A DNA stretch of 39,480 bases from Actinomycetota bacterium (GTDB lineage Bacteria; Actinomycetota; Thermoleophilia; Gaiellales; Gaiellaceae). Below are positions 2,547-29,239 of the stretch, in pieces. The notes under the pieces were generated by a model, which saw only the letters and a program-made list of their open reading frames with translations, searched no databases and had not been told where the DNA came from. The position numbers and the translations under genes are program-made. The number at the start of each line of letters is the position of its first letter. The first letter of the stretch is position 1. The stretch covers positions 1 through 39,480 of the forward strand of contig PMZQ01000100.1 in NCBI GenBank assembly GCA_003170155.1, read 5' to 3'.

Positions 2547-2575
2547 TTGACGTCCTGTTATAACAGGAGTACAAC
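2547..2575 (+). promoter_or_regulatory. Promoter with palindromic operator in its spacer
   Basis: A -35 box TTGACG (2547-2552) and a -10 box TACAAC (2570-2575) are 17 nt apart. The spacer holds the perfect palindrome CCTGTTATAACAGG (2554-2567). The same arrangement stands before the SIS/ABC operon at 11217-11245, with 19 of 22 bases identical across operator and -10. A regulator bound here would block RNA polymerase. The GT-N4-AC core suits a HutC-type GntR repressor, and two such genes lie in the linked operons. The predicted leader to the kinase gene is about 150 nt. Confidence 0.7.
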
Positions 2576-2734
2576 TACTTCTACTCCGCAAACCGCTGCG
2601 AGCGCGAGACGGCGGAGGAGACGTCAGGTTTTCGTGTTATTGGGCCCACCATCCTTGTACGGTAGCCCGGATATGGCCGCAAGACAGGTGAGAAGGCCCG
2701 TGTCCTGCGGCTCGAGACTAAGGACAAGACGACA

Positions 2735-4225
2735 ATGATCCTCGCCCATGACCTCGGCACGACGGGGAACAAGGCATCACTCTATTCCCGTGACGGTCTC
2801 CTGGTTGGGAGCCAAACCGTTACCTATGCGACGAACTTCGGCCTTCACGGAATGGCCGTACAGAATGCGGAGGACTGGTGGCTCGCCGTTCGGCAGGGCA
2901 CGAAGCAGCTGCTTGAGAAAACGCGGACACAGCCAAAGGACATTGACTGTGTTGTGTTCTCAGGGCAGATGATGGCAGTTGTGCCGCTCGATGCCGACGG
3001 CGAGCCGCTCTGTCCTGCACTGATTTGGGCGGACACGCGCGCGCAGGAGGAGTGTGCTCAGCTGGTCGAGTCGATCGGAATGGAGCGCGCCTATGAGATC
3101 ACAGGCCACCGCCTGAACCCGACCTACTCTCTGCCGAAAATGATGTGGCTGCGCCGTACAGAGCCGGCCTTATGGAGCCGCCTCAAGACGATCGTGCAGC
3201 CAAAGGACTTCGTCACTTACCGCCTCACCGGCCGACTGGCGACCGACCCATCGGACGCCTCGGGAATGAACGCGTTCGACCAGAAGCAGGGTCGATGGTC
3301 TGAGGAACTCCTGTCGGCAGCCGGCATCGACGAGGCGCTGCTGCCGGAAATCGTTCCTTCGACGACGGTGCTGGGCGGCGTGACTCAGTCGGCGGCGGCG
3401 GCTACAGGTCTACTCGCGGGGACACCGGTTGTGGTCGGAGGGGGCGACGGTCCTTGCGCTGCGCTTGGAGCCGGGGTGGTACGCCCTGAATCGGGCGCCT
3501 ACACCTACCTCGGATCGTCATCGTGGATCTCGCAAGCATCGATGCAGCCACTCCACGATCCGCTGATGCGGACGATGACCTTCAGCCACGTTGTCCCCGG
3601 AATGTATCTCCCAACCGCGACGATGCAGGCGGGCGGCGCTTCGTTCGAGTGGGTCGTGGATCTACTTCACCCAGAGCCGGATCCGGAGCGCTTCGAGCGC
3701 CTGCTGGCAGCGGCCTCGGAGGTCGGCCCTTCTTCCGATGGGCTGCTGTTCCTGCCACATCTCCTGGGCGAACGATCGCCGTATTGGAACCCGCGTGCGC
3801 GCGGAGCGTTCGTCGGGCTTGCGAAGCATCACGGGCAGGCGCAGGTAGTCCATGCCGTGCTCGAAGGCGTCGCGATGAACCTCTACACGGCCGTGCTCGC
3901 CTTCGCCGAAATGGGGAGCCAAATCGAGTCGGTCGGCGCAATCGGAGGAGGAGCCCGCAGCGATGTTTGGCTACAGATCTTTGCCGACGTCTGGGGATTG
4001 CCTGTGCGTCGCCGCTCGATCGTCGAAGAAGCAAACGGGCTCGGCGCGGCCGTGGTCGGAGGCGTGGCGGTCGGCCTCTTCCCCGACTTCGACGTTGCCA
4101 CGACCTTGTCGGAAGTGCAGGCGGAGTTCGCGCCGAACGAGGAGCGGCATGGCCGCTACGAGACTCTCTACACCTCATTCCTCAACTCATATCGCGCGCT
4201 GGAGCCGATCTTCGATGAGCTCTGA
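2735..4225 (+). CDS. FGGY-family carbohydrate kinase (xylulokinase-like)
   Basis: This 496-aa protein has both FGGY ribonuclease-H-like domains. The N-terminal phosphate loop is HDLGTTGNK (5-13), the likely catalytic base is Asp238 in GGGDGPCAALG, and the C-terminal adenosine site includes GAIGGGARSDVWLQIFADV. Family members use ATP to phosphorylate ketoses or polyols; xylulokinase is the closest named type, but substrate specificity cannot be read. AAGGA lies about 11 nt before the ATG. A GntR regulator and a HAD hydrolase follow in the same direction. The promoter is nearly a duplicate of the one before the deglycase/ABC operon, so the kinase probably serves the same pathway. Confidence 0.92.
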   Translation: MILAHDLGTTGNKASLYSRDGLLVGSQTVTYATNFGLHGMAVQNAEDWWLAVRQGTKQLLEKTRTQPKDIDCVVFSGQMMAVVPLDADGEPLCPALIWADTRAQEECAQLVESIGMERAYEITGHRLNPTYSLPKMMWLRRTEPALWSRLKTIVQPKDFVTYRLTGRLATDPSDASGMNAFDQKQGRWSEELLSAAGIDEALLPEIVPSTTVLGGVTQSAAAATGLLAGTPVVVGGGDGPCAALGAGVVRPESGAYTYLGSSSWISQASMQPLHDPLMRTMTFSHVVPGMYLPTATMQAGGASFEWVVDLLHPEPDPERFERLLAAASEVGPSSDGLLFLPHLLGERSPYWNPRARGAFVGLAKHHGQAQVVHAVLEGVAMNLYTAVLAFAEMGSQIESVGAIGGGARSDVWLQIFADVWGLPVRRRSIVEEANGLGAAVVGGVAVGLFPDFDVATTLSEVQAEFAPNEERHGRYETLYTSFLNSYRALEPIFDEL

Positions 4226-4358
4226 CGTCTTCGCCCGACTTCGCTTTGAGAACTACCGGCCGTCGTTTCGGCACGGCTCGAGCGAAACGATTGCCGCGGC
4301 CGATGGAGATGCGTTAACTTGCCTCTGTTCTGAAGATCGCCGCATCATCGCCGCCTAG
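4215..4358 (+). CDS. Possible 47-aa protein overlapping the kinase stop
   Basis: An ATG eleven bases upstream of the end of the kinase gene opens a 47-codon frame that ends 17 bases before the regulator gene. The overlap would allow translational coupling. The product contains no recognised motif, and there is no separate Shine-Dalgarno sequence beyond the kinase coding region. It may be a chance frame or the relic of a larger gene. I include it because it fills the only gap in an otherwise compact operon. Confidence 0.22.
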   Translation: MSSDVFARLRFENYRPSFRHGSSETIAAADGDALTCLCSEDRRIIAA

Positions 4359-4375
4359 CTCCGGGAGAAGAAAGA

Positions 4376-5152
4376 GTGGACACGTCGCCACGAGGACTCG
4401 ATCGATCTTCACCGATCCCCTACTACTTCCAGCTCCAGCAGATACTCCGCGAGCTGATCGAGCAGGGCGAGCTCAAAGAAGACGAGCGGCTGCCGGGAGA
4501 GAACCAGCTGTGCCGGTCCTTCGAGGTCTCGCGGACGGTCGTTCGGCAGGCTCTGGGCGAACTCGAAAACGAAGGTCTGGTGGAGCGCCACAGGGGTCGC
4601 GGGACGTTCGTTGCACGGAAGAAGTTGCCCGATTTTCTCGTGCAGGATTTGACGGGACTCTATGAGGAAGCGCTTGCCCACGGGCGTCGCATCCAGAGCA
4701 CCGTACGAAAGCTCGAGCTGGTTCCGGTCGGGGGGCCGATTGCAAGAGAGCTCGCGCTGGCCGAGGACGACCCGGTGATTCTCCTCGACCGGATTCGCTA
4801 CATCGACGGCGAGTTGTGGACAGCGAACACGACCTATCTCCCGTACGAGCTTTGCCCGGAGCTGCTGCACGAAGACATGGCAGAGCAGTCTCTGTACGAG
4901 CTACTCGAGCACAAGTACGGAATCACGATCGCGACCGCGACGCGATCCGTAGAGGCGATACTTGCCAGCAGCTCGATCGCGAATGCGCTCGGGATCGGTG
5001 AGGGTACCGCCGTCCTTGTGCTCCGCAGCACCTCTTTCAAAGACGACGGGCGCCCGATCGAGTACTTCGTCTCCTATTACCCCGGCGAGAAGTCGCTCTT
5101 CGAGGTGACCCTCAGTCGTCGTCGCGATTCGACGGCTGCCGCCGATGTGTGA
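4376..5152 (+). CDS. GntR/HutC-family transcriptional regulator
   Basis: This 258-aa protein starts with a winged helix (about 14-80), including LPGENQLCRSFEVSRTVVRQ and the wing RHRGRGTFV. A UTRA effector domain follows (about 95-245) with DPVILLDRIRYIDG and the closing PIEYFVSYY motif. UTRA domains bind small ligands, often sugar phosphates or amino compounds, and release the repressor from DNA. The start is GTG with GGGAG upstream. It lies between the FGGY kinase and the HAD gene and overlaps the latter region closely. It is related in layout to the regulator at 14989. It is a candidate for binding CCTGT-N4-ACAGG. Confidence 0.92.
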   Translation: MDTSPRGLDRSSPIPYYFQLQQILRELIEQGELKEDERLPGENQLCRSFEVSRTVVRQALGELENEGLVERHRGRGTFVARKKLPDFLVQDLTGLYEEALAHGRRIQSTVRKLELVPVGGPIARELALAEDDPVILLDRIRYIDGELWTANTTYLPYELCPELLHEDMAEQSLYELLEHKYGITIATATRSVEAILASSSIANALGIGEGTAVLVLRSTSFKDDGRPIEYFVSYYPGEKSLFEVTLSRRRDSTAAADV

Positions 5153-5165
5153 CGGAGACGGCCGT

Positions 5166-5834
5166 ATGAGAGTCGGCACGCGCCGCTGGGAAGGAATCAT
5201 CTTCGATTGTGATGGCGTACTGCTCGATACCGAGGTGTGCTGGACACGCGCCGAAGAGGCGCTTTTTTTGTCCTACGGCAAGGTCTTCACGCTCGAGCAC
5301 AAGCGTCGTCTTCTTGGCACCGCCGGCGATGCCGCCGGTGAGCTGCTGGCGAGCGCACTGGAGTTACCCGATCACTCCAGCGAGTTGTTGGCCGAGCTTC
5401 ACGAGCTGGCTAGGCGGGAATTCGCCACCAGCTCGTCCGCGACAGAGGGCGCTATCGAGCTTCTGCGTGAATTGAAAGGCGAGGTTCGTATCGGCCTCGC
5501 GTCGAACACGCCGTGGGCGCTCGTCGAGGTCGCCTTGAGCCGAGCCCAAGTTGGCACCGACTACTTCGGCGCAATCGTCTGCGCCGACGAGATGCTCCGA
5601 CCGAAACCGGCGCCGGATCTGTACGAGGAGGCATGCTCTCGACTGGGCGTGGCCGCCTCCAGGTCGCTCGTCTTCGAGGATTCGCCCACCGGGGTTGCGG
5701 CCGCGAAAGCCGCCGGCCTGGCCGTTGTCGGTGTGCCGTCGATGCCGGGCATCCGGCTGAACGCGAACTGGATTTTCCCCACGCTGGCCGATCCGAAGTT
5801 GCACGCACTGCTGGGCCTCGGCCACCCCGACTAG
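5166..5834 (+). CDS. HAD-superfamily hydrolase (beta-phosphoglucomutase-like)
   Basis: All four HAD motifs are present: DCDGVLLDTE with nucleophile Asp14 and Asp16, SNTPW for motif II, the motif III Lys in RPKPAPD, and FEDSPTG for motif IV. A helical cap lies between motifs I and II. This is the layout of sugar-phosphate phosphatases and beta-phosphoglucomutases. I chose the ATG at 5166 because GGAG stands eight bases before it. An in-frame ATG at 5145 overlaps the regulator stop but has no ribosome-binding site. The gene is last in the kinase-regulator operon and converges on the dehydrogenase gene. Likely job: dephosphorylation or mutase step on a sugar phosphate. Confidence 0.88.
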   Translation: MRVGTRRWEGIIFDCDGVLLDTEVCWTRAEEALFLSYGKVFTLEHKRRLLGTAGDAAGELLASALELPDHSSELLAELHELARREFATSSSATEGAIELLRELKGEVRIGLASNTPWALVEVALSRAQVGTDYFGAIVCADEMLRPKPAPDLYEEACSRLGVAASRSLVFEDSPTGVAAAKAAGLAVVGVPSMPGIRLNANWIFPTLADPKLHALLGLGHPD

Positions 5835-5888
5835 GCTCCCCCTAAGGCGGCCTCTCCCGCGAGGTTAGCTCGTGGACATAACCCGTCG

Positions 5889-6911
5889 TCAACCGACTCG
5901 AAATCGAGGAACCCGCTCATGTCGGCCCGAGTGCGCCGACGAGGCGGTCGCAAGCGCGACGGCGAGCGCCTTGGCCCCGTCGACTCCGGAGGCGAGCGGC
6001 TCGCCCACGCCTCGTACGGCGGAGTTGAACGCGTCGATCGTGCGGGCAAACGGGTCGAGGCGATCAGGCACGGCAACCGGCTCCGGCTCGCGACCGTCCC
6101 GCAGGAGGATGATCTCTCCCACCGGCTCGCGCGCCATCACGCCTGTCGCTACGACCGAGGCGTCCGTCCCGTGAACCTGCACTCCGGTCCCGGCATGAGG
6201 AACCGTAAAAGCGTCGTGGAAGGAGACGAGGACTCCACGCGTCGTCCGCATCACGCCCATCACCGCGTCCTCGATTCCAGCCTTGGCAAGTCCCTGGTTA
6301 ACCGCAACAGCCGTCACCTCTTCGATCTCGTCTCCTAGCACGAAGCGCACGAGGTCGGCATCGTGCGGGGTCAGATCGAGGATCACTCCGGCCCCGGCTT
6401 TCCGGCCGTCCAGACGCCAAGTCTGGAGCCTGGGCGGTAGATATTCGGCGTGGAAGATTCGCATTGCCAGGGGCGCTCCAAGCGCTCCAGATGCGACGAG
6501 CTCGCGAAGCTTGCGATGAGTGGCGGCGCCGCGGAAGTTGTGACAGGTGGCGAGAACGATTCCCGTCTCCTCGGCCGCTCGGATCATCGCCGTTGCTTCG
6601 TCCAGACTGAGTGCCAGCGGCTTCTCGCAGAGCACGTGCTTGCCGGCTCTGGCGGCCGCAACAGTCTGTGGCGCATGGAGCTCGTTTGTCGTGCTGATGT
6701 AGACGGCCTGGACCTTGCTATCGGCGAGCAGCTGATCAAGCGAGGAGTAGGCTCGCGGCAGGCCGCACCGCTCGGCCAGCGCGCGCCCTCGCTCTAACGA
6801 GCTACTGAAAACGCCGCGGACGCTGGCAGCGTCTGCGGCGTCGATTACGCCCGCCACGTAGTCCTCGGCCATGAAGCTTGCGCCAATCAGTGCCCATCCG
6901 ATTTCGTCCAT
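5889..6911 (-). CDS. Gfo/Idh/MocA-family oxidoreductase
   Basis: This 340-aa protein has an N-terminal Rossmann fold (ALIGASFMAEDY) and the family EKP motif at 96-98 (CEKPLALS), in which Lys97 joins catalysis. The C-terminal alpha/beta domain carries GVILDLTPHDADL, where the His acts near the substrate. Members oxidise or epimerise sugars, inositols and sugar amines with NAD(P). AGGGG lies eight bases before the ATG at 6911; a GTG three codons upstream lacks this spacing. It is the last gene behind the ABC transporter genes, separated from the binding-protein gene by a very stable hairpin, and so may be expressed at a lower level. Confidence 0.9.
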   Translation of the reverse strand: MDEIGWALIGASFMAEDYVAGVIDAADAASVRGVFSSSLERGRALAERCGLPRAYSSLDQLLADSKVQAVYISTTNELHAPQTVAAARAGKHVLCEKPLALSLDEATAMIRAAEETGIVLATCHNFRGAATHRKLRELVASGALGAPLAMRIFHAEYLPPRLQTWRLDGRKAGAGVILDLTPHDADLVRFVLGDEIEEVTAVAVNQGLAKAGIEDAVMGVMRTTRGVLVSFHDAFTVPHAGTGVQVHGTDASVVATGVMAREPVGEIILLRDGREPEPVAVPDRLDPFARTIDAFNSAVRGVGEPLASGVDGAKALAVALATASSAHSGRHERVPRFRVG

Positions 6912-6931
6912 CCGCCTCACCCCTAGGAGGG

Positions 6932-6968
6932 CCCCCGGGGCAGGCTCACAGTGAGCCGGCCCCGGGGG
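6932..6968 (-). terminator. Very stable hairpin after the binding-protein gene
   Basis: CCCCCGGGGC (6932-6941) pairs with GCCCCGGGGG (6959-6968), and GGCTCAC pairs with GTGAGCC inside it, leaving a tiny loop at 6950. That makes 17 base pairs interrupted by one mismatch. No U-run follows, so it is not a standard intrinsic terminator. Placed ten bases after the binding-protein stop and before a co-directional gene, it may act as an mRNA 3'-end stabiliser or partial terminator that raises binding-protein level over the downstream dehydrogenase. Confidence 0.65.
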
Positions 6969-6977
6969 TATCGCGAG

Positions 6978-7964
6978 TTAGCTGGTTCGGTAGAGGTACT
7001 TGACGACGTTCGGAGAGTTGACGTTGGCCTTCGTGGCGAGCACGTAGGTCGGCGTCCACAATTTGGGCGGCTTCGTGCCGTTCTTGAGGTATGCGACCGC
7101 ATACTCGATACCCTTGACGCCCTCGTCGTAGCACTTCTGGACGATCAACATCGAGACGAGGCCGCGCCTGAGATCCTGGACCTCGGCCGGCTCGCCGTCG
7201 AAGGCGATGATCTTGACCTTGCCAGTCATATGCGCATTCTGTACCGCCGTCGCGGCACCTTGACCGTAGGCCGTGTCGGATCCGAACACACCCTTCAGGT
7301 CCGGATAACGGGTTAGCAGCGCACTTGTCAGCGTCGCGGCCGTGTTCGGGTCGTCGGCGCCGTACTGCGCTCCGACGAACACGAGCTTCGTCTTCTTCAA
7401 CTCGGCCGCGAAGCCTTCCTCGCGCTGGTCGGTGGAGAAGACACCGCGCTGCTCACCGACGTAGGCGACCTTAGAGCCGGCCGGTAGCTGCTTCGCCAAC
7501 TGCTGTGCTGCAATCTCACCGCCGAGCAAGTTGTTCGACGCGAGCAGGCCGAGCGGGATGCTCGTGTCGCGCACGGTCTCATCGATGAACAGGATCGGGG
7601 TGCCCCCGTTCTTGACCGCTCGCAACGGCGCAACAAGCGCGTTGACGTCGGTCGGAACCGCGATCAGGAAGTCGGGCTTGGTCGCCATGACAGCGTCGAG
7701 AACTGGAATCTGCTCTTGGGGGTTGTAGTCGGCCGGGCCTTGCCAAGTGAATTTCACTCCGAGCTTCTTGGCCTCCATTTTCGCGCCCGCAATCATGGTC
7801 ATAAAGAACGGATCGTGGTTGTCTCCGGTGAGGAGAGTGATCCGATACTGCTTCGATTTATTCGAGTTCGATGTCCCACACCCGCTCAGCACGGCAGCTG
7901 CCATGACAGACATCGCGAGCAGTACGACAACGGCCGGTAGTAGACGCTTACCGTTTGATCTCAT
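6978..7964 (-). CDS. Sugar ABC transporter substrate-binding lipoprotein
   Basis: This 328-aa protein belongs to the periplasmic-binding-protein 4 (RbsB-like) type. A signal peptide ends in LSGC with lipidated Cys29, so the protein is anchored outside the membrane. The mature part has the two-lobed fold order ITLLTGDNHDPFF, LIAVPTDVNALV, VAYVGEQRG and FGSDTAYGQGAATAV. AAGGAG precedes the ATG. It is downstream of a matching permease and ATPase and is followed by a strong hairpin. Ribose, fructose or other pentose/hexose-type ligands are usual for the family. With FrlB- and FrlD-like enzymes nearby, a sugar amine (Amadori product) is a reasonable guess. Confidence 0.92.
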   Translation of the reverse strand: MRSNGKRLLPAVVVLLAMSVMAAAVLSGCGTSNSNKSKQYRITLLTGDNHDPFFMTMIAGAKMEAKKLGVKFTWQGPADYNPQEQIPVLDAVMATKPDFLIAVPTDVNALVAPLRAVKNGGTPILFIDETVRDTSIPLGLLASNNLLGGEIAAQQLAKQLPAGSKVAYVGEQRGVFSTDQREEGFAAELKKTKLVFVGAQYGADDPNTAATLTSALLTRYPDLKGVFGSDTAYGQGAATAVQNAHMTGKVKIIAFDGEPAEVQDLRRGLVSMLIVQKCYDEGVKGIEYAVAYLKNGTKPPKLWTPTYVLATKANVNSPNVVKYLYRTS

Positions 7965-8040
7965 CGAGATCTCCTTCTCCTTCTTCTAGGTGCCTAAAGT
8001 AGCGGATGGGATTTGACGTGTTTTGGAAAGAGGAACGACG

Positions 8041-9105
8041 TCATGCGATTCGCGCTCGCCGCCGTCGCATCTGATCGATATAGACCGCAGTGATAAGGAC
8101 GCTCCCGAGCGCGACGTTCTGCCAGAACGGCTCCACTCCAATGAGAACGAAGCCGTTGCGTAGAGTCGCCGGAATGAAGGCACCGATGACCGTGCCGAGC
8201 ATGCGGCCACGACCGCCGAAGAGACTTGTGCCTCCGATTACGGCCGCTGTGATCGCGGTGAGGTTGTCCTGCGTATGAGCGAAGATCGAGGCCGTATCGA
8301 AGCGGGCCACGTCCATCACGCCGACGATCCCAGCGAGAAGGCCCATCAGCCCGTAGAGGCTGATCGTGTGCAGACGGACATTGATGCCGGCACGCCGTGC
8401 CGCCTCGGGGCTTGCGCCGATCGCGTAGGTGTGTAGGCCGTAACGTGTCAGCTCTAGCAAGACCCAGAGGATTCCGACGACAATTATCGCCGTCCAGACC
8501 AGCCAGGGAATCCCGAACAACTGCCCCGAGCCGTAGGAGTTCTGCAGCGCCGGTGGGATATTCGGAACGTTGAGCCCACCGGTGATGACCTGGGCTAAGC
8601 CGACCGCCACGCTTAAGGTTCCAAGAGTGACGATAAACGGGGGCACGCCCCATTTCGCGGTGAGAAGACCGTTCACCAGCCCCCAGCCGAGTCCGGCCAG
8701 AACGGCGACGGCGACTCCGGCCGTTATGCCGAGCGCGAGATGTGGGTAAGTGAATTGCGCAACCTGCGCTGGGCTTCCGGACAGCGCCACAAGCGTCTTC
8801 GCTCCCACGACAGATGAGAAAACGACGACCGATCCGATCGAAAGATCGAGTCCGGCCGCGACGATGATGAGCATCTCGCCGGCGGATAGGACCAGAATCT
8901 CGCTCGTATCAAGCGCGATGCTCCGGATATTGCCGGAAGAGAAGAACTCCCCGGAAGGCGAGAGGATCGTGAAGATAACGATCATCGCCCCGAGAATGGC
9001 TACCAGGAGGGCGCTCTCGAGTTTGAAGAATCTCGCCGCCAGTTCGCGAAGCTGTTTCGCCGGGCTGTGCTCGCTCGAGGCGCTCCCGTGAGTACCGATA
9101 TTCAC
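8041..9105 (-). CDS. Sugar ABC transporter permease (RbsC-like)
   Basis: This 354-aa membrane protein of the BPD_transp_2 (ribose/xylose/galactose) type has about eight to ten hydrophobic segments. It carries the family motif GLDLSIGSVV and the cytoplasmic EAARRAGINV loop that contacts the ATPase. I place the start at a GTG at 9105: its GTGA overlaps the ATPase stop, and GGGAGGG lies just upstream. A longer frame continues upstream, but that part lies across the ATPase gene and reads as shadow sequence. The protein forms the transport channel together with the ATPase and lipoprotein of the same operon. Confidence 0.9.
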   Translation of the reverse strand: MNIGTHGSASSEHSPAKQLRELAARFFKLESALLVAILGAMIVIFTILSPSGEFFSSGNIRSIALDTSEILVLSAGEMLIIVAAGLDLSIGSVVVFSSVVGAKTLVALSGSPAQVAQFTYPHLALGITAGVAVAVLAGLGWGLVNGLLTAKWGVPPFIVTLGTLSVAVGLAQVITGGLNVPNIPPALQNSYGSGQLFGIPWLVWTAIIVVGILWVLLELTRYGLHTYAIGASPEAARRAGINVRLHTISLYGLMGLLAGIVGVMDVARFDTASIFAHTQDNLTAITAAVIGGTSLFGGRGRMLGTVIGAFIPATLRNGFVLIGVEPFWQNVALGSVLITAVYIDQMRRRRARIA

Positions 9106-9887
9106 GCGCTTGCCCTCCCCTCGGTGTTCATGATCCCGGTCATTGCCCGCAAAAGCTCTTCCACGTCGGTCTCGGCCGTTGGCTTGGTCAGTACGGTCTG
9201 TCCATGGCGCAGGACGGTTACTCGATCGGAAGCCAGGAAGACGTGCGGGAGGTTGTGCGATATGAAGATCACCGCCAGCCCACGATCGTCGCGCGCACGC
9301 CTCATAAGCGAGAGCACGAACTCTGTCTGCTGCGGCGCAAGCGCAGCCACGGGCTCGTCCATGATCAGTATCCGCCGCCCCCATGCGGCGGCTCGGGCGA
9401 CTGCGACTGCCTGGCGCTGACCGCCGGAGAGATCCGACACCGGAATGGTGAACGACGGCAACTCGATCCCGAGCTCTTTGAGTTGCTCGGCCGCGTTACG
9501 TTTCATCGCTCGACGATTGATGAAGCCCAGCTTCGCGAGCGGCCCGCGGACGAGCAACTCGCGGCCGAGATGGATGTTCATGGCGGTATCGAGCGTCGAG
9601 GCGAGGGCGAGATCCTGGTACACGGTCTCAATCCCCGCAACCTGCGCGTCTCGAGGCGAGGCAAATCGCGCCGGACGGCCGTCGATCTCGAGGACGCCCT
9701 CGTCGGGCTGGACGTCACCCGAGAAGACCTTGATCAGCGTCGACTTGCCGGCTCCGTTGTCACCGACGAGCGCGTGGATCTCATGCTCGCGCAGTTCGAA
9801 ATTCGCTCCGCCGAGCGCCTGCACGTGGCCGTAGTTCTTGACGATTCCACGGGCAGAGAGCAGGACCTTGTCGGACGTAGGGTTCAT
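9102..9887 (-). CDS. Sugar ABC transporter ATP-binding protein, single domain
   Basis: This 261-aa ATPase shows Walker A GDNGAGKST (42-50), Q-loop YQD (90-92), signature LSGGQRQ (153-159), Walker B ILIMDEP (173-179) and the switch His in FISH. Ribose/xylose-type systems usually carry a double ATPase of about 500 residues. This is the single-domain form, which would work as a homodimer, as in FrcA-like systems. Its ATG overlaps the stop of a possible 51-aa frame, and its own stop overlaps the permease start, so the genes are translationally coupled. Confidence 0.92.
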   Translation of the reverse strand: MNPTSDKVLLSARGIVKNYGHVQALGGANFELREHEIHALVGDNGAGKSTLIKVFSGDVQPDEGVLEIDGRPARFASPRDAQVAGIETVYQDLALASTLDTAMNIHLGRELLVRGPLAKLGFINRRAMKRNAAEQLKELGIELPSFTIPVSDLSGGQRQAVAVARAAAWGRRILIMDEPVAALAPQQTEFVLSLMRRARDDRGLAVIFISHNLPHVFLASDRVTVLRHGQTVLTKPTAETDVEELLRAMTGIMNTEGRASA

Positions 9888-10039
9888 AGCGGGACCTCCT
9901 CGTGTAGCCCCCTCCGCGGAGAACCGCCGCGGCGGAGGTCTTCGACGGGCGCCTCGACGCCGGCCAGACCAATGCGGTCAAGCACTTCGTCGGCCGTCAA
10001 AACCCTGCCGCTGCTCGCGGCGAAGCTCTTAGGCCACAT
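9884..10039 (-). CDS. Possible 51-aa protein between deglycase and ATPase
   Basis: The ATG at 10039 lies within the last codons of the SIS gene, directly behind GGAG, and the frame closes with TGA overlapping the ATPase start (ATGA). The product reads plausibly in the middle (LTADEVLDRIGLAGVEAP, then VEDLRR), and its codons use G/C at third positions much like the neighbouring genes. I recognise no family. It could be a small coupled protein of the operon, or the relic of a C-terminal extension of the deglycase. Overlaps at both ends favour real translation, but no further evidence is available. Confidence 0.35.
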   Translation of the reverse strand: MWPKSFAASSGRVLTADEVLDRIGLAGVEAPVEDLRRGGSPRRGLHEEVPL

Positions 10040-11108
10040 CTCCGTAGTCCCCCCAATGGGAACCGATCTTGCCCATGTAGCGACGCTCGTCGACGTCGTG
10101 AGCCTTCTGAGCCGCCATGTACATGACCAACCACTCGGTTGGAACGAAGAGGGCGAATGGTGAGAAGAGCTCGCCGAACTCCGGGTAGTCCTTGGCATCG
10201 AAGACAAGCTGAGCTGAGCTGTGCTTCGTGCAGAAACGGATAGCACGCTCCGAGACGGTGCGCGTCGCGTCTGTTCCGACCAAATGCAGGATCGGCATTC
10301 GCAACTTCGACTCGCCTGCCGGAGGGATGATCTCGATTGGACCGTGGTAAAACTCGCCGGTATCGACCGGTGCAGCGTCGATCCAGAGGTTCTCGATCAC
10401 GACGCTCAGGGACAGCTTGTAAGCAAGTCCGAAAAGCGGTCCGGAGCCGAGTACATAGAAACCGCCCGCGTCGGCGAATTGGGAAGCCAGCTCGCGCGCG
10501 GGTTGCCGTGTGCTTGTGACCAGCTCCTCGATTTTGCCGGGTAGCCGACCGAGCTCATCGATGATCTGATGCCCGACGTCGGCATTCTGGTCGCGAACGA
10601 TCATGATGTGAGCGGCGAGCAGATAGACAATCGCGAGCGGCGCTGTGTAGACCGCCTTGCTCTGGTAGTCGAGCACCACCGAAGCACCCTGTGCAAGCGG
10701 AGTCTCCGGCGTGTTCGTGATCGCTACGACGGTGGCCCCTCGCTCGCCTGCCAGCTTCTTCGCCTCCAGCACCTCGGGTGTTTCGCCTGAGTAGGAAATG
10801 ACGAAGACGGTGGAGTTTTTATCGCACGCGTACGGCGCCCGGGCCAAGAACTGCCACCCGGTCATGACGTCAGACTTCACGTCGGTGAAGCTATCGAGCA
10901 GGTATTGCGCCCCCATCATCGCCGCGAGGGAAGCACCGCCGCCTACCATGAACAGCCGCGGCTCCTTCTGAGCCGCAATCTTCTTTGCGAGTTCTTCGAC
11001 CGGGGGAGCGAGCGTATCGCGTACGCGCTCGATGGCCGTGGGCGTCACCTTGGACGCGAAGAAAAGGGCTTCTGTGTTTATCAGCGACTCAGTCGTTTTA
11101 GTCGACAT
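10029..11108 (-). CDS. frlB: FrlB-like SIS-domain sugar-amine 6-phosphate deglycase
   Basis: This 359-aa protein has two SIS domains. The first has VISYSGETPEVLEAKKLA, the phosphosugar-binding Ser pattern. The second follows the FrlB pattern closely: GSGPLFGLAYK, DTGEFYHGPIEII, FVPTEWLVMYMA and the ending DERRYMGK. FrlB splits fructoselysine 6-phosphate into glucose 6-phosphate and lysine. Glucosamine-6-phosphate-type SIS enzymes are related, so another amine may be the substrate. The ATG follows GAGGAGG. The gene heads the transporter operon, about 110 nt behind its promoter; the FrlD-like kinase gene lies just upstream in the same direction. Confidence 0.85.
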   Translation of the reverse strand: MSTKTTESLINTEALFFASKVTPTAIERVRDTLAPPVEELAKKIAAQKEPRLFMVGGGASLAAMMGAQYLLDSFTDVKSDVMTGWQFLARAPYACDKNSTVFVISYSGETPEVLEAKKLAGERGATVVAITNTPETPLAQGASVVLDYQSKAVYTAPLAIVYLLAAHIMIVRDQNADVGHQIIDELGRLPGKIEELVTSTRQPARELASQFADAGGFYVLGSGPLFGLAYKLSLSVVIENLWIDAAPVDTGEFYHGPIEIIPPAGESKLRMPILHLVGTDATRTVSERAIRFCTKHSSAQLVFDAKDYPEFGELFSPFALFVPTEWLVMYMAAQKAHDVDERRYMGKIGSHWGDYGDVA

Positions 11109-11216
11109 GGGGCCTCCTCGTGGGGCTTAGTTTTTCCGCAATTAACCTGGGTCGCCGCTTCGCTCTCTCGTGCTTGCAGGTTTAGGAATTGGGCTGCGGG
11201 TTCGTAAGGTGGGGAA

Positions 11217-11245
11217 GTTGTACTCCTGTACTCACAGGATGTCAA
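11217..11245 (-). promoter_or_regulatory. Promoter with operator in its spacer, deglycase/ABC operon
   Basis: On the minus strand, a perfect -35 TTGACA (11245-11240) and TACAAC (11222-11217) are 17 nt apart. The spacer holds CCTGT-GAGT-ACAGG. The arms and all of GGAGTACAAC are the same as in the kinase promoter at 2547-2575. The predicted leader to the deglycase ATG is about 100 nt. The shared design means one repressor should govern both operons, and it makes this an internal promoter behind the kinase gene. Confidence 0.72.
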
Positions 11246-11346: not shown

Positions 11347-12165
11347 TCATGCCCGAGTCTCCCCGTACAGCTCCGCGCCCAGTAAGCCGCCGACGTGGAG
11401 ACAGGTCTTTGCCGCGAATTCAGTTGCGACCAGCATGCACTCCCTTAACAACGAGCCCTCCAATCGCTCTGTGAGGAAGGAGGCGATATAGGCGTCTCCT
11501 GCGCCTGTCGTATCGACGGGGTAGAAAGGCAACGCCGTCACGTCCTCGACCGTTTCGCCTTCGATAGCGACGCTTCCCTGCGAGCCGCAGGTAACAACAG
11601 CCACCGTCGCGCCCGAGGCGACGGCATGCCGTGCCAGCTCAACTGGCGCGATGCCGGGTCGAGCCGAAAAGAACGCGACATCGAGCGTGCGCAGGTCGGG
11701 CGGAGCGTCCTTGGTCGAGAAGTCGTACGACACCCTGGCGCCTCTCTCGTACAGGGCCGCCAGAAAAGCCTCTACGTCCCTCGCGCCAGCGCCGTGGACG
11801 AGGTCGCTCTCGACCGCGCGGTCGAAATCGTCTTCGCTTGGCTCGTAGTCGGCGACGACGCCGAAGTCCTCGTGCAAGAAGACGCGCTCGCCGCCTTCCT
11901 GGAGCTCGATCTTCGTCACAGATGTGTGTCCGGGCAGCAGCTGCAAGCGCTCAATCGCTACGTGCTCGCGCTCCAGCACTCTCCGTAGTGCACTTCCGTT
12001 GGCGTCATTTCCGACGGCACCCATGTACTCAGTTGCGAAACCACGCCGAGCGAGCTGCACCGCGACGTTGTAGGCGTTACCACCCGCAAACCTGCGCCGC
12101 ACAGGCTCGATGAATACGTCGACGCAGTTGTCACCGATCGCTGTAGCGTGTCGGCTTACGGTCAC
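11347..12165 (-). CDS. frlD: FrlD-like fructosamine kinase (PfkB family)
   Basis: This 272-aa protein opens with ATAIGDNCVDVF and RRRFAGGNAYNVAV, the N-terminal pattern of fructoselysine 6-kinase FrlD, and ends with the PfkB signature DTTGAGDAYIASF holding catalytic Asp224. The family length is about 260. The reaction would be ATP-dependent 6-phosphorylation of an Amadori compound, giving the FrlB substrate. I start at the GTG at 12165, which fits FrlD N-termini; a TTG 18 codons upstream adds unrelated residues. It lies 115 bases behind the GntR gene in the same direction and is followed by the deglycase promoter. Confidence 0.85.
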   Translation of the reverse strand: MTVSRHATAIGDNCVDVFIEPVRRRFAGGNAYNVAVQLARRGFATEYMGAVGNDANGSALRRVLEREHVAIERLQLLPGHTSVTKIELQEGGERVFLHEDFGVVADYEPSEDDFDRAVESDLVHGAGARDVEAFLAALYERGARVSYDFSTKDAPPDLRTLDVAFFSARPGIAPVELARHAVASGATVAVVTCGSQGSVAIEGETVEDVTALPFYPVDTTGAGDAYIASFLTERLEGSLLRECMLVATEFAAKTCLHVGGLLGAELYGETRA

Positions 12166-12280
12166 CTCGCCCCCCGTTCGGCCGGCACGCGACTGCGCGT
12201 CTTCGGAAGTTCCAAGCAAGCCACGGGCTCAGTCACCAGTTTCCGAGTGAGCGGTGTCCGATTGTCTGGCATCGGGACGG

Positions 12281-13018
12281 TCACGTCGCCCGTTGACGGA
12301 GCACGTAGAACGAGAAAACATCGGCGCGATGGAAATCCTGCGAGTAGAGAACCGGTACTCCGGCAGGATCGACGCAGCGCTCGCTGATAAGAAGCCACGG
12401 GTTCTCGCCATTGGTTCCCGGTAGCTGAGCAGCCTCGGCGGGTAGGACCGTGGCTCTGATTCTCGCGGCCGAAGAGATGGGCTGGTGCCCACGCTCGCCG
12501 AACCATTCGTTCAGCGATCCCGAGAAGTCACTTTTCTTTACGCTCTCGCCCTGGAGCAGCGCCGCGTCGAAGGTGTTGATGTCGTAAATCAACACCTTTT
12601 TCTTGTGCATGCGAAGACGCTTCACACGCACGACCTCGGCATCGGGAGCGAGTTCGAGCGCTACGGCTTCCTCCTCGGTGGGTCGACCTTGCTCGACCGA
12701 TATCACCTTGTTGACCGGCTCGTAGCCGAGTCCTGTCAGCATCTCGGTCACGCTCTCGAACTCGGTCACGGGCCGCTCGACCAACAGACCGGAGATCGCC
12801 GAGACGAAACGGCCTCGACCGTGCTTGACATCGATCAATCCGTCCTGCTCGAGCAGTTTGAAGGCCTCGCGCACCGTTCCTCGAGCGACGCCGAAGCGGG
12901 TGGCCACCTCGGCCTCGGGCAGCATCTGATCGCCCGGCTTGAGACCGTTGCTTGCGATCAGGTTCTTTAGCTCATCACGTAGCTGGAGGACGACCGAGCG
13001 TCTCTTAATCACCGGCAT
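12281..13018 (-). CDS. GntR/HutC-family regulator (FrlR-like position)
   Basis: This 245-aa protein has an N-terminal winged helix (about 5-70; LPEAEVATRFGVARGTVREA and KHGRGRFVS) and a UTRA-type ligand domain that ends FSFYVLRQR. The start at 13018 is supported by AGGAGG nine bases upstream; an ATG nine codons earlier lacks one. It is divergent from the epimerase gene and leads into the kinase gene. In Escherichia coli the fructoselysine operon is likewise run by a GntR member (FrlR). The promoter appears to be TGGAAA-17-TAGGAT, with GGTGTAGGATACC across the -10 box, so self-regulation is likely. Confidence 0.9.
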   Translation of the reverse strand: MPVIKRRSVVLQLRDELKNLIASNGLKPGDQMLPEAEVATRFGVARGTVREAFKLLEQDGLIDVKHGRGRFVSAISGLLVERPVTEFESVTEMLTGLGYEPVNKVISVEQGRPTEEEAVALELAPDAEVVRVKRLRMHKKKVLIYDINTFDAALLQGESVKKSDFSGSLNEWFGERGHQPISSAARIRATVLPAEAAQLPGTNGENPWLLISERCVDPAGVPVLYSQDFHRADVFSFYVLRQRAT

Positions 13019-13050
13019 GTTGTCGGACCTCCTATCATCGGACAAGGCGG

Positions 13051-14960: not shown

Positions 14961-14978
14961 TGTATAGATGTCTGTACA
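14961..14978. promoter_or_regulatory. 18-bp near-palindromic operator in divergent promoter
   Basis: TGTATAGATGTCTGTACA is an inverted repeat in which seven of nine base pairs match. It sits between the divergent hydrolase and GntR genes and overlaps likely -10 boxes in both directions (TATAGA on plus, TATACA on minus). The GntR gene at 14989 has no Shine-Dalgarno sequence and would have a leader of only about 12 nt. Autoregulation by that protein is the natural reading. Confidence 0.55.
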
Positions 14979-14988
14979 TTTCCCACCT

Positions 14989-15789
14989 ATGTCCGACAAG
15001 ATCTTCGAGCGCTCGGCCCCTGTCCCGCTCTACCACCAGCTCAAAGAGTGGATTTCCAGCAGAATTCTCTCGGGAGAACTTGCTCCCGGGACGCGACTGC
15101 CGGGTGAGTACGAGCTGTGCGAGAAGCTCGGCATCAGCCGCGGCGTGGTGCGACAAGCGCTCAGCGAGCTTCGCTACGAGGGGCTCATTCACCGCGCGCG
15201 AGGGAAAGGAACCTTCGTCTCCGAGCCCAAGGCGACGGAAGGTTTGATCGAGGGGCTCTGGGGTCTCGCCGATGACGCAGCTCTCCGCGGAAGGCGGATC
15301 GAAAGCAAGGTCTTGTTGTGTCGGGAAGGCCCCGCGAGCGCGGCGGTCGCCAGCGTACTGGAGCTGGCCCCGGGAGATCCGGTGGTCGAGATCGAGCGCC
15401 TGCGCGCTCTCGACGGAGTCCCGCAGGTGCTGGCGCTCACCTATCTTCCGGCCGCGATGGTGCCTGGTCTCGTCGACCACGAGCTCGGCGGTCAAGAGTC
15501 TCTCTACCGCGTTCTGCGAGAGGAGTACGGGCTCAGGATCCTTTCCAGCGTGCGGCGTGTGGAGGCAATCGTGGCCGACTCTCGCGAGGCTCGTCTCTTG
15601 CAGGTGAGCACGGGCGATCCCCTGCTCGTCTTGCGCTCGGTCGGCTACACGACCGAGCGTCGTCCTTTCGACTACTTCATCGCGCACCATCGTGGCGATC
15701 TGAACGCCTTCGAAGTGGTCTTGCCCGGGCCAACCGCCGCCGTCGGGAGTTTCGCCAGCGTCCCACTACCCGAGGAGAGTTCGAAGTGA
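14989..15789 (+). CDS. GntR/HutC-family transcriptional regulator
   Basis: This 266-aa protein has a winged helix (about 10-75; LPGEYELCEKLGISRGVVRQ and ARGKGTFVS) and a UTRA domain (about 90-240; DPVVEIERLRALDG and the closing PFDYFIAHH). It is similar in layout to the regulator at 4376. I start at the ATG at 14989; an in-frame ATG at 14968 lies inside the operator palindrome. Its stop overlaps the GTG of the dehydrogenase gene, so it leads the operon of dehydrogenase, aldolase and AroE-like protein and probably controls that operon and the divergent hydrolase. Confidence 0.92.
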   Translation: MSDKIFERSAPVPLYHQLKEWISSRILSGELAPGTRLPGEYELCEKLGISRGVVRQALSELRYEGLIHRARGKGTFVSEPKATEGLIEGLWGLADDAALRGRRIESKVLLCREGPASAAVASVLELAPGDPVVEIERLRALDGVPQVLALTYLPAAMVPGLVDHELGGQESLYRVLREEYGLRILSSVRRVEAIVADSREARLLQVSTGDPLLVLRSVGYTTERRPFDYFIAHHRGDLNAFEVVLPGPTAAVGSFASVPLPEESSK

Positions 15790-17440: not shown

Positions 17441-18436
17441 ATGAACGAGAAGGAGTTCTCTACGAGTAATACGGACACTCAAATCGAGCTCCCGGAGCGT
17501 TCTGCGACGGCGCCGAGTCGTTTCTCGTTCATAGGTGTCACGACCGGTAAGTCGGCGATTATGCGCGTTTTCCCGAAATGGGCCGAGCACCTCGGGCTTG
17601 GCGGCGTCATCATGGCTGGCTGCGATCTGCCGATTCACGCCGAGCCCACCTGCTACCGACAGGTCGTGAGCGCAATCAAGGCTGATCCACTCGACTTGGG
17701 CGGTCTGGTTACGACGCACAAGATCGACCTCTTCACCGCCTGCCGCGACTTGTTCGACTACGTCGATCCTTACGCCGAGCTCTGCGGTGAGGTCTCGTGT
17801 CTCTCGAAGCTCGATGGGAAGTTTCGAGCCCACGCCAAGGATCCGATCTCCTCGGGTCGCTCAATCGACGAGTTCATCCCGCAGAACTACTGGAACGAGA
17901 CGGACAGCGAAGTGCTTCTGTTTGGAGCCGGCGGCTCCAATCTCGCGATCACGCTCCATCTGATGACGGCGCGAGAGGATCACGATCGGCCGCGCCGGAT
18001 CGTGGTCGTCAACCGCAGTCCTGCCAGGCTCGCGTCGATGCGCGCCCTTCACGAGAAGCTGAATAGCGGCGTTCGAATCGAATACATCGAGAACGCTGAC
18101 GCGAGCGAAAACGACCGGCTGGTGACGGCGCTTCCGGCCGGATCGCTGGTAGTCAACGGCACCGGCATGGGCAAGGACATACCCGGAAGTCCAATCACCA
18201 AGGAGGCTGTTTTCCCCGAGCGAGGCCTTGTCTGGGAACTCAACTACCGCGGTGAGCTCGATTTCCTTCACCTCGCGGAGCGACAACAGCGGGTTCGCTT
18301 CCTAACGGTCGAGGATGGCTGGCGCTACTTCGTGCACGGGTGGACGTCTGTCATCGAGGAGGTATTCGACGTCGACATCACATCATCGATTGTCGATGAG
18401 CTTGCTAAGATCGCACTGCCGCTTCGAGGCGCGTGA
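17441..18436 (+). CDS. AroE-like (shikimate/quinate dehydrogenase-type) protein
   Basis: This 331-aa protein has the shikimate-dehydrogenase architecture. The N-terminal substrate domain has GVTTGKSAIMRVFP and the catalytic-lysine region GGLVTTHKIDLF (Lys94), followed by the NAD(P)-binding loop FGAGGSNLAI (161-170) and LVVNGTGMGKD. Several landmark residues differ from AroE: the usual SxS is replaced, and NTDG becomes KDPISSG. It is therefore unlikely to make shikimate. Position at the end of a sugar-acid operon suggests oxidation of a hydroxylated acid. AAGGAG lies five bases before the ATG. The protein is about 50 residues longer than normal AroE. Confidence 0.8.
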   Translation: MNEKEFSTSNTDTQIELPERSATAPSRFSFIGVTTGKSAIMRVFPKWAEHLGLGGVIMAGCDLPIHAEPTCYRQVVSAIKADPLDLGGLVTTHKIDLFTACRDLFDYVDPYAELCGEVSCLSKLDGKFRAHAKDPISSGRSIDEFIPQNYWNETDSEVLLFGAGGSNLAITLHLMTAREDHDRPRRIVVVNRSPARLASMRALHEKLNSGVRIEYIENADASENDRLVTALPAGSLVVNGTGMGKDIPGSPITKEAVFPERGLVWELNYRGELDFLHLAERQQRVRFLTVEDGWRYFVHGWTSVIEEVFDVDITSSIVDELAKIALPLRGA

Positions 18437-29039: not shown

Positions 29040-29222
29040 CAGCCGGTTTCCTCATGGAGTGACTCACCATCGTTTCACAGCCGGTTTCCGGAGCGAGCGA
29101 CTCACCATTTCCCGCGTCGTTCGCCGCATAGCTTAACCAGTTTCCACAGGGAGCGACTCACCATTTCGCGCGTCGTTCGCTGCATTGTTTGGCCAGTTTT
29201 CGCAGGGAGCGACTCACCATCC
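29040..29222 (-). repeat. Imperfect tandem 56-bp repeats
   Basis: The word GACTCACCAT occurs at 29061, 29099, 29155 and 29211, giving spacings of 38, 56 and 56 bases. Around it the units share GCCGGTTTCC or CCAGTTT, GGGAGCGACTCACCATTTC and CGCGTCGTTCGC(C/T)GCAT. The units lie between the binding-protein gene and the permease genes and are non-coding. Repetition with a shared core resembles REP-type elements that affect mRNA decay. Confidence 0.6.
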
Positions 29223-29239
29223 GGTGAGTCGCTCCCTGC
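29202..29239 (-). terminator. Perfect 17-bp hairpin after the SBP gene
   Basis: GCAGGGAGCGACTCACC (29202-29218) pairs fully with 29223-29239 across the four-base loop ATCC. It starts 35 bases after the SBP stop on the minus strand. No U-run follows, so partial termination or 3'-end protection is more likely than full termination. One arm is the last of the four 56-bp-repeat cores, so the hairpin seems to have grown out of an inverted copy of a repeat unit. Confidence 0.65.

Follow-up and report, generated by a model that had tools for sequence, protein, structure and literature searches.

Twin operator-promoters suggest a local sugar regulon under the HutC-type regulator GntR1 in a Gaiellaceae genome

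Two convergent operons and their putative twin promoters

Two near-identical putative promoter elements were found in the window, i.e. the whole stretch of 39,480 nucleotides of actinomycetotal DNA (Gaiellaceae) that was analyzed. With a probability of about 0.82 they represent the operator-promoters of one local regulon, which is controlled by an autoregulated repressor of the HutC/UTRA type, here called GntR1. The system would be a small, self-contained local HutC-type regulon of an ordinary kind. The first-pass annotation had noted that almost identical elements, TTGAC(G/A)-17 nt-TACAAC, head two operons on opposite strands and that CCTGT-N4-ACAGG fills the spacer of both; both observations were borne out by direct reading. 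Promoter 1 (2547-2575, plus strand) reads TTGACG-TCCTGTTATAACAGGAG-TACAAC and promoter 2 (11245-11217, minus strand) reads TTGACA-TCCTGTGAGTACAGGAG-TACAAC, with the operator occupying the 17-nt spacer in each case. The predicted operator 1 (2553-2568, no strand) is a perfect palindrome, TCCTGTTATAACAGGA, as had been claimed, its length being 16 bp and not 14 bp, while the predicted operator 2 (11224-11239, read on the minus strand) is TCCTGT-GAGT-ACAGGA.

Direct comparison of the two elements revealed 25 identical bases out of 29, and no similarity was detected in the flanking sequences past the element edges. Both window copies also show TTG/CAA symmetry at their outer ends, which is a product of the promoter hexamers and is not retained in other genomes. 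Regarding the position before the coming gene, which had been described as the same, the orientation is indeed alike but the distance differs, because 159 nt separate the -10 box from the start codon of the FGGY gene and 108 nt from that of the SIS gene. The -10 hexamer TACAAC matches the consensus at four of six positions in both promoters, and a strict sigma-70 consensus scan missed promoter 1 as well as promoter 2. The combination of TTGACA or TTGACG with TACAAC at 17 nt distance is seen twice in the window and is kept in two of the genomes discussed below (G451 and G047), the -10 boxes being weak. Comparison of the leaders of both operons with Rfam matched no known RNA element. On the other side of promoter 1, a WD40-repeat-like reading frame (2360-2476) ends approximately 70 nt before it.

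Operon 1 comprises three genes on the plus strand, which encode a xylulokinase-like carbohydrate kinase of the FGGY family (2735-4225; Pfam FGGY_N/FGGY_C, TIGR01312 above cut-off), the regulator GntR1 (4376-5152), and a HAD-family sugar phosphatase identified by profile match (5145-5834). The domain composition of GntR1 is that of the HutC type, since the N-terminal GntR winged helix-turn-helix (PF00392, 74.9 bits) and the C-terminal UTRA domain (PF07702, 129.9 bits) both score above the cut-off. The phosphatase gene also adjoins the GntR1 ortholog in G047 and G451. Operon 2 on the minus strand begins with a FrlB-like sugar-phosphate isomerase/deglycase with a Pfam SIS domain (10029-11108), followed by genes assigned by profile matches to a sugar ABC transporter, namely its ATPase (9102-9887), a BPD_transp_2 permease (8041-9102) and a Peripla_BP_4 sugar-binding protein (6978-7964), and ends with a Gfo/Idh/MocA oxidoreductase (5889-6920). 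The permease probably starts close to where the ATPase gene ends, though its open frame extends to 9384. Both operons are convergent and meet at 5834/5889. A PfkB kinase (11347-12219) and a second HutC-type regulator, GntR2 (12281-13045), are encoded upstream of promoter 2 and do not belong to operon 2, and a third one, GntR3 (14968-15789), is located beside a phosphotriesterase-like gene.

Rarity and conservation of the operator

The exact motif CCTGTN4ACAGG occurs only twice in the 2.11 Mb source genome, and both sites are the twin elements. For the window, a first-order Markov model predicts 0.019 exact motifs and 0.001 occurrences of the longer TCCTGTN4ACAGGA, while two are present in each case. 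When up to three mismatches were allowed, matches to the full 29-bp pattern were again restricted to the two elements in the entire genome, and a weight-matrix scan of the window returned no site beyond the two operators. With two mismatches permitted, the motif appears in the window at chance frequency without enrichment, hence the signal resides in the exact core. This latter finding could be taken to mean that the two copies arose by chance, or by recent duplication of a promoter cassette, and have no regulatory meaning. However, the excess of exact copies over expectation, the dissimilar flanks, and the conservation of the motif next to the regulator of four further genomes make such an explanation practically negligible. 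Sites with one mismatch at other places in the genome coincide with long open frames and appear to be fortuitous. The LexA box of E. coli, CTGT-N8-ACAG, was also considered as identity of the motif and rejected, because the spacing is 4 here instead of 8. Among 299 genomes of the class, the full 29-bp element was matched in the source genome alone; the promoter as a whole is thus not preserved base for base.

Conservation of the operator was assessed via the regulator GntR1, because orthologs of the SIS gene are missing in close relatives: none was found below E 1e-60 in the searched genomes of the genus and family, and the search in the order gave one distant match. Orthologs of GntR1 were sought in the class, a second order, and the phylum, which identified four genomes, here designated G451 (58% identity over the aligned part), G047 (52%), G406 (50%), and G386 (45%); together the orthologs do not form a single strongly supported clade. 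The scan of related genomes proposed by the first-pass annotation revealed the motif to be conserved before relevant genes in all four. Their whole genomes contain one, two, one and two exact sites, respectively, and all six are situated on the contig of the GntR1 ortholog at a distance of 12.3 kb or less. Including the source genome, 8 of 8 exact sites are found near GntR1 or its ortholog, in approximately 0.75% of the 16.4 Mb that make up the five genomes on which the conservation evidence is based. The distance limit of 12.3 kb was set after the data had been seen, but this choice is of no consequence for an effect of this size. The exclusive co-localization supports the earlier suggestion that the FGGY kinase/GntR/HAD operon and the FrlB-like/ABC operon belong to one regulon.

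The genes behind the sites encode FGGY kinases, ABC transporters, Gfo/Idh proteins, a transketolase or regulators, with FGGY, ABC transporter, Gfo/Idh and GntR itself as recurrent targets. In G451, the promoter TTGCAA-TCCTGTAATTACAGGAC-TATAGT heads an operon that starts with a cupin-type phosphoglucose isomerase and an FGGY kinase 64% identical to that of the window; one promoter of like architecture thus precedes both. The operon continues with a hydroxyacid dehydrogenase, a homologue (53%) of the window protein encoded at 17441-18436, an ABC transporter, and an SDR protein; the window protein is shikimate-dehydrogenase-like by sequence reading and has no Pfam match. In G047, the promoter TTGACA-TCCTGTAATCACAGGATA-TACACT precedes genes for a permease, an ATPase, a binding protein, an aldo-keto reductase and an epimerase-like TIM barrel, and an FGGY gene is divergent from this permease-headed operon. 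The second G047 site precedes a transketolase, a DeoC-like and two aldehyde-dehydrogenase-like genes, the last three being named by sequence reading. The register TTG-N3-TCCTGT-N4-ACAGGA is retained in the G451 and G047 promoters. Moreover, the weight matrix found extra sites, absent from its training set, before the G451 transporter (L028:13683) and the G047 permease (L022:13358). In G406, the site occupies the gap between the regulator gene and a divergently oriented transporter operon. In G386, sites are found before the genes for binding protein, ATPase and permease as well as before FGGY, and a one-mismatch site precedes a Gfo/Idh gene. Two of the G386 operators are positioned just 3' of the -10 box and not in the spacer, which indicates that the exact placement is not universal.

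The regulator likely to read the operator

The motif had initially been offered as binding site for one of the GntR proteins, and the comparison of genomes narrows this idea to GntR1 as the predicted binder, in preference to GntR2 and GntR3. Judged from these sequence data, GntR1 clearly outranks the other two as candidate. That the operator belongs to, or is shared with, GntR2 or GntR3 is conceivable in so far as both are HutC-type regulators encoded on the same island and GntR3 shares about 40% identity with GntR1. However, no CCTGTN4ACAGG is present near the GntR3-type regulators of G233 (66% identical to GntR3) and G189 (56%); the exact copies in these genomes are on other contigs. Instead, GntR3 and its G233 ortholog share the motif ATGT-N4-ACAT, which reads ATGTCTGTACAT at 14968-14979 of the window and ATGTATGGACAT at 1562-1573 of L020. 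The window copy lies where GntR3 begins, in the gap that separates this gene from the divergent phosphotriesterase-like gene, and is probably a separate operator of GntR3. GntR2 is only 23% identical to GntR1 and shows no link to the motif, and no site in the other genomes stands beside a better match to GntR2. A role of either protein as reader of the operator is therefore quite improbable.

The DNA-contacting residues are in agreement with GntR1 as the binder. In the structure of the NagR-DNA complex, Arg38 reads G-5 and Arg48 reads G-4 (PMC4333415). According to the alignment, the second, Arg48-type arginine is preserved in GntR1 and its orthologs, while the Arg38 position is taken by Asn, His or Ala; the operator base before GT, which is read as G by Arg38 in NagR, is T. 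Position 28 of the HutC helix-turn-helix covaries with the base before GT (PMC4494728); the loss of the Arg38-type residue together with T at this place fits this amino acid-base correlation.

Proposed mechanism and relation to known HutC systems

For a repressor of this type, an operator in the promoter spacer or over the transcription start is the expected position. A GntR1 dimer is predicted to bind TCCTGT-N4-ACAGGA, and because the operator occupies the spacer between -35 and -10, the bound protein should exclude RNA polymerase from both promoters. Once the cognate sugar has been taken up, the UTRA domain would bind an effector, most likely a phosphorylated pathway intermediate, and the repressor would leave its operators. 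The kinase-regulator-phosphatase operon and its convergent neighbour for isomerase, transporter and dehydrogenase would then be induced together. As GntR1 is encoded in operon 1, it would also control its own synthesis. The presence of kinase, isomerase, dehydrogenase, phosphatase, and transporter points to a monosaccharide or a derivative as substrate.

Binding and the type of effector are here inferred by analogy, as is repression rather than activation. NagR blocks transcription and is released by sugar phosphates (PMC4333415), the same is described for DasR (PMC4918961), and for FrlR repression and release by a sugar phosphate have been discussed and proposed (PMC12632257). It might be that GntR1 binds the operator but activates transcription, or acts together with a second regulator. 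The weak -10 boxes of both promoters and one G047 site without a good -35 box would agree with activation, and even the sign of action of FrlR was disputed (PMC12632257). On the other hand, the sites in spacers and at transcription starts are positioned like those of repressors, and HutC relatives of known structure act as repressors that sugar phosphates release (PMC4333415, PMC4918961, PMC12632257), which makes either mode unlikely. Simple repression by GntR1 remains the preferred mode of action.

The best solved relative of GntR1 is NagR (YvoA) from Bacillus subtilis (E 1e-34; PDB 4u0v, 4wwc). The NagR system with its dre-sites shares the winged helix-turn-helix plus UTRA architecture, a palindromic GT-N4-AC operator and the association with sugar operons, and NagR is the one released by sugar phosphates. 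The dre-sites of NagR and DasR are, however, characterized by G before GT, read by Arg38, while the GntR1 operator has T at this position and CC/GG outside. Among the HutC regulons derived from genome comparisons (Suvorova et al. 2015, PMC4494728), the operator core is GT-N4-AC, and palindromes of this type are found near regulators and target operons as observed here; all our sites contain it as CCT-GT-N4-AC-AGG. The published consensus is GTMTAKAC with mostly A/T neighbours (PMC4494728), whereas the centre is free and flanked by CC/GG in the present sites. The strict centre, which is typical but not obligatory, is absent, given the centres TATA, GAGT, AATT, AATC and AGGT. The outer operator bases may be new, because no description of them was found in the literature searched; a literal search for the motif string gave no match either, which is weak evidence of novelty.

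The Frl system with its repressor FrlR (PMC12632257) shares a deglycase-like SIS gene, a PfkB-family kinase nearby, transporter genes, and a repressor gene convergent with the operon. Nevertheless, the SIS protein reaches 172.6 bits against the FrlB equivalog cut-off of 430, and the PfkB protein 170.2 bits against 247 for FrlD, with the PfkB gene lying outside the regulated operon. Moreover, the transporter is of the ribose type and not of the FrlONM type, and the regulator gene shares its transcription unit with an FGGY kinase gene, unlike in the Frl system.

For most specialists this will be a solid but ordinary regulon. A regulator without a prior target is assigned a predicted operator and a regulon of two operons in this genome, along with an induction model open to testing. 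Furthermore, the FGGY kinase and the FrlB-like isomerase become tied to one pathway, because in G451 an isomerase of a different fold is found in the kinase operon behind a similar promoter.

The nearest relatives of the SIS isomerase were found in Chloroflexota/Thermomicrobiota (58-63% identical), which, together with their absence from the searched genomes of its own genus and family, suggests that it was horizontally transferred. None of these relatives has the motif directly before the SIS gene. At their loci, the motif is present before a GntR gene in L003, as half motif in L004, and absent from L005. The L003 site (9117-9132, uncultured Chloroflexi bacterium) reads ACCTGTAATGACAGGT and is situated 27 nt before the start of the GntR gene that heads a GntR-SIS operon. 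This regulator belongs to a clade other than that of GntR1, yet the same CCTGT-N4-ACAGG core is found upstream of its own operon. Two further regulators, in G715 and G189a, are 42% identical to GntR1 and are associated with TTGT-N4-ACAA. It is possible, but rather doubtful, that sister HutC repressors (39-66% identical) kept a TGT-N4-ACA core while the outer pairs diverged (CC/GG for GntR1 and orthologs, TT/AA for G715 and G189a, AT for GntR3 and its ortholog), and that the isomerase operon kept its operator but swapped the regulator after horizontal transfer; the latter idea comes from the Chloroflexi operon. Sister regulators with differing outer bases offer a natural series for how HutC repressors read DNA.

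Elsewhere in the window, at 29060-29235, an approximately 60-nt unit (GGAGCGACTCACCATTTC...CAGTTTYCRCAGG) is repeated head to tail in several degenerate copies, the final copy being inverted; the array lies downstream of a gene for an oligopeptide-binding protein.
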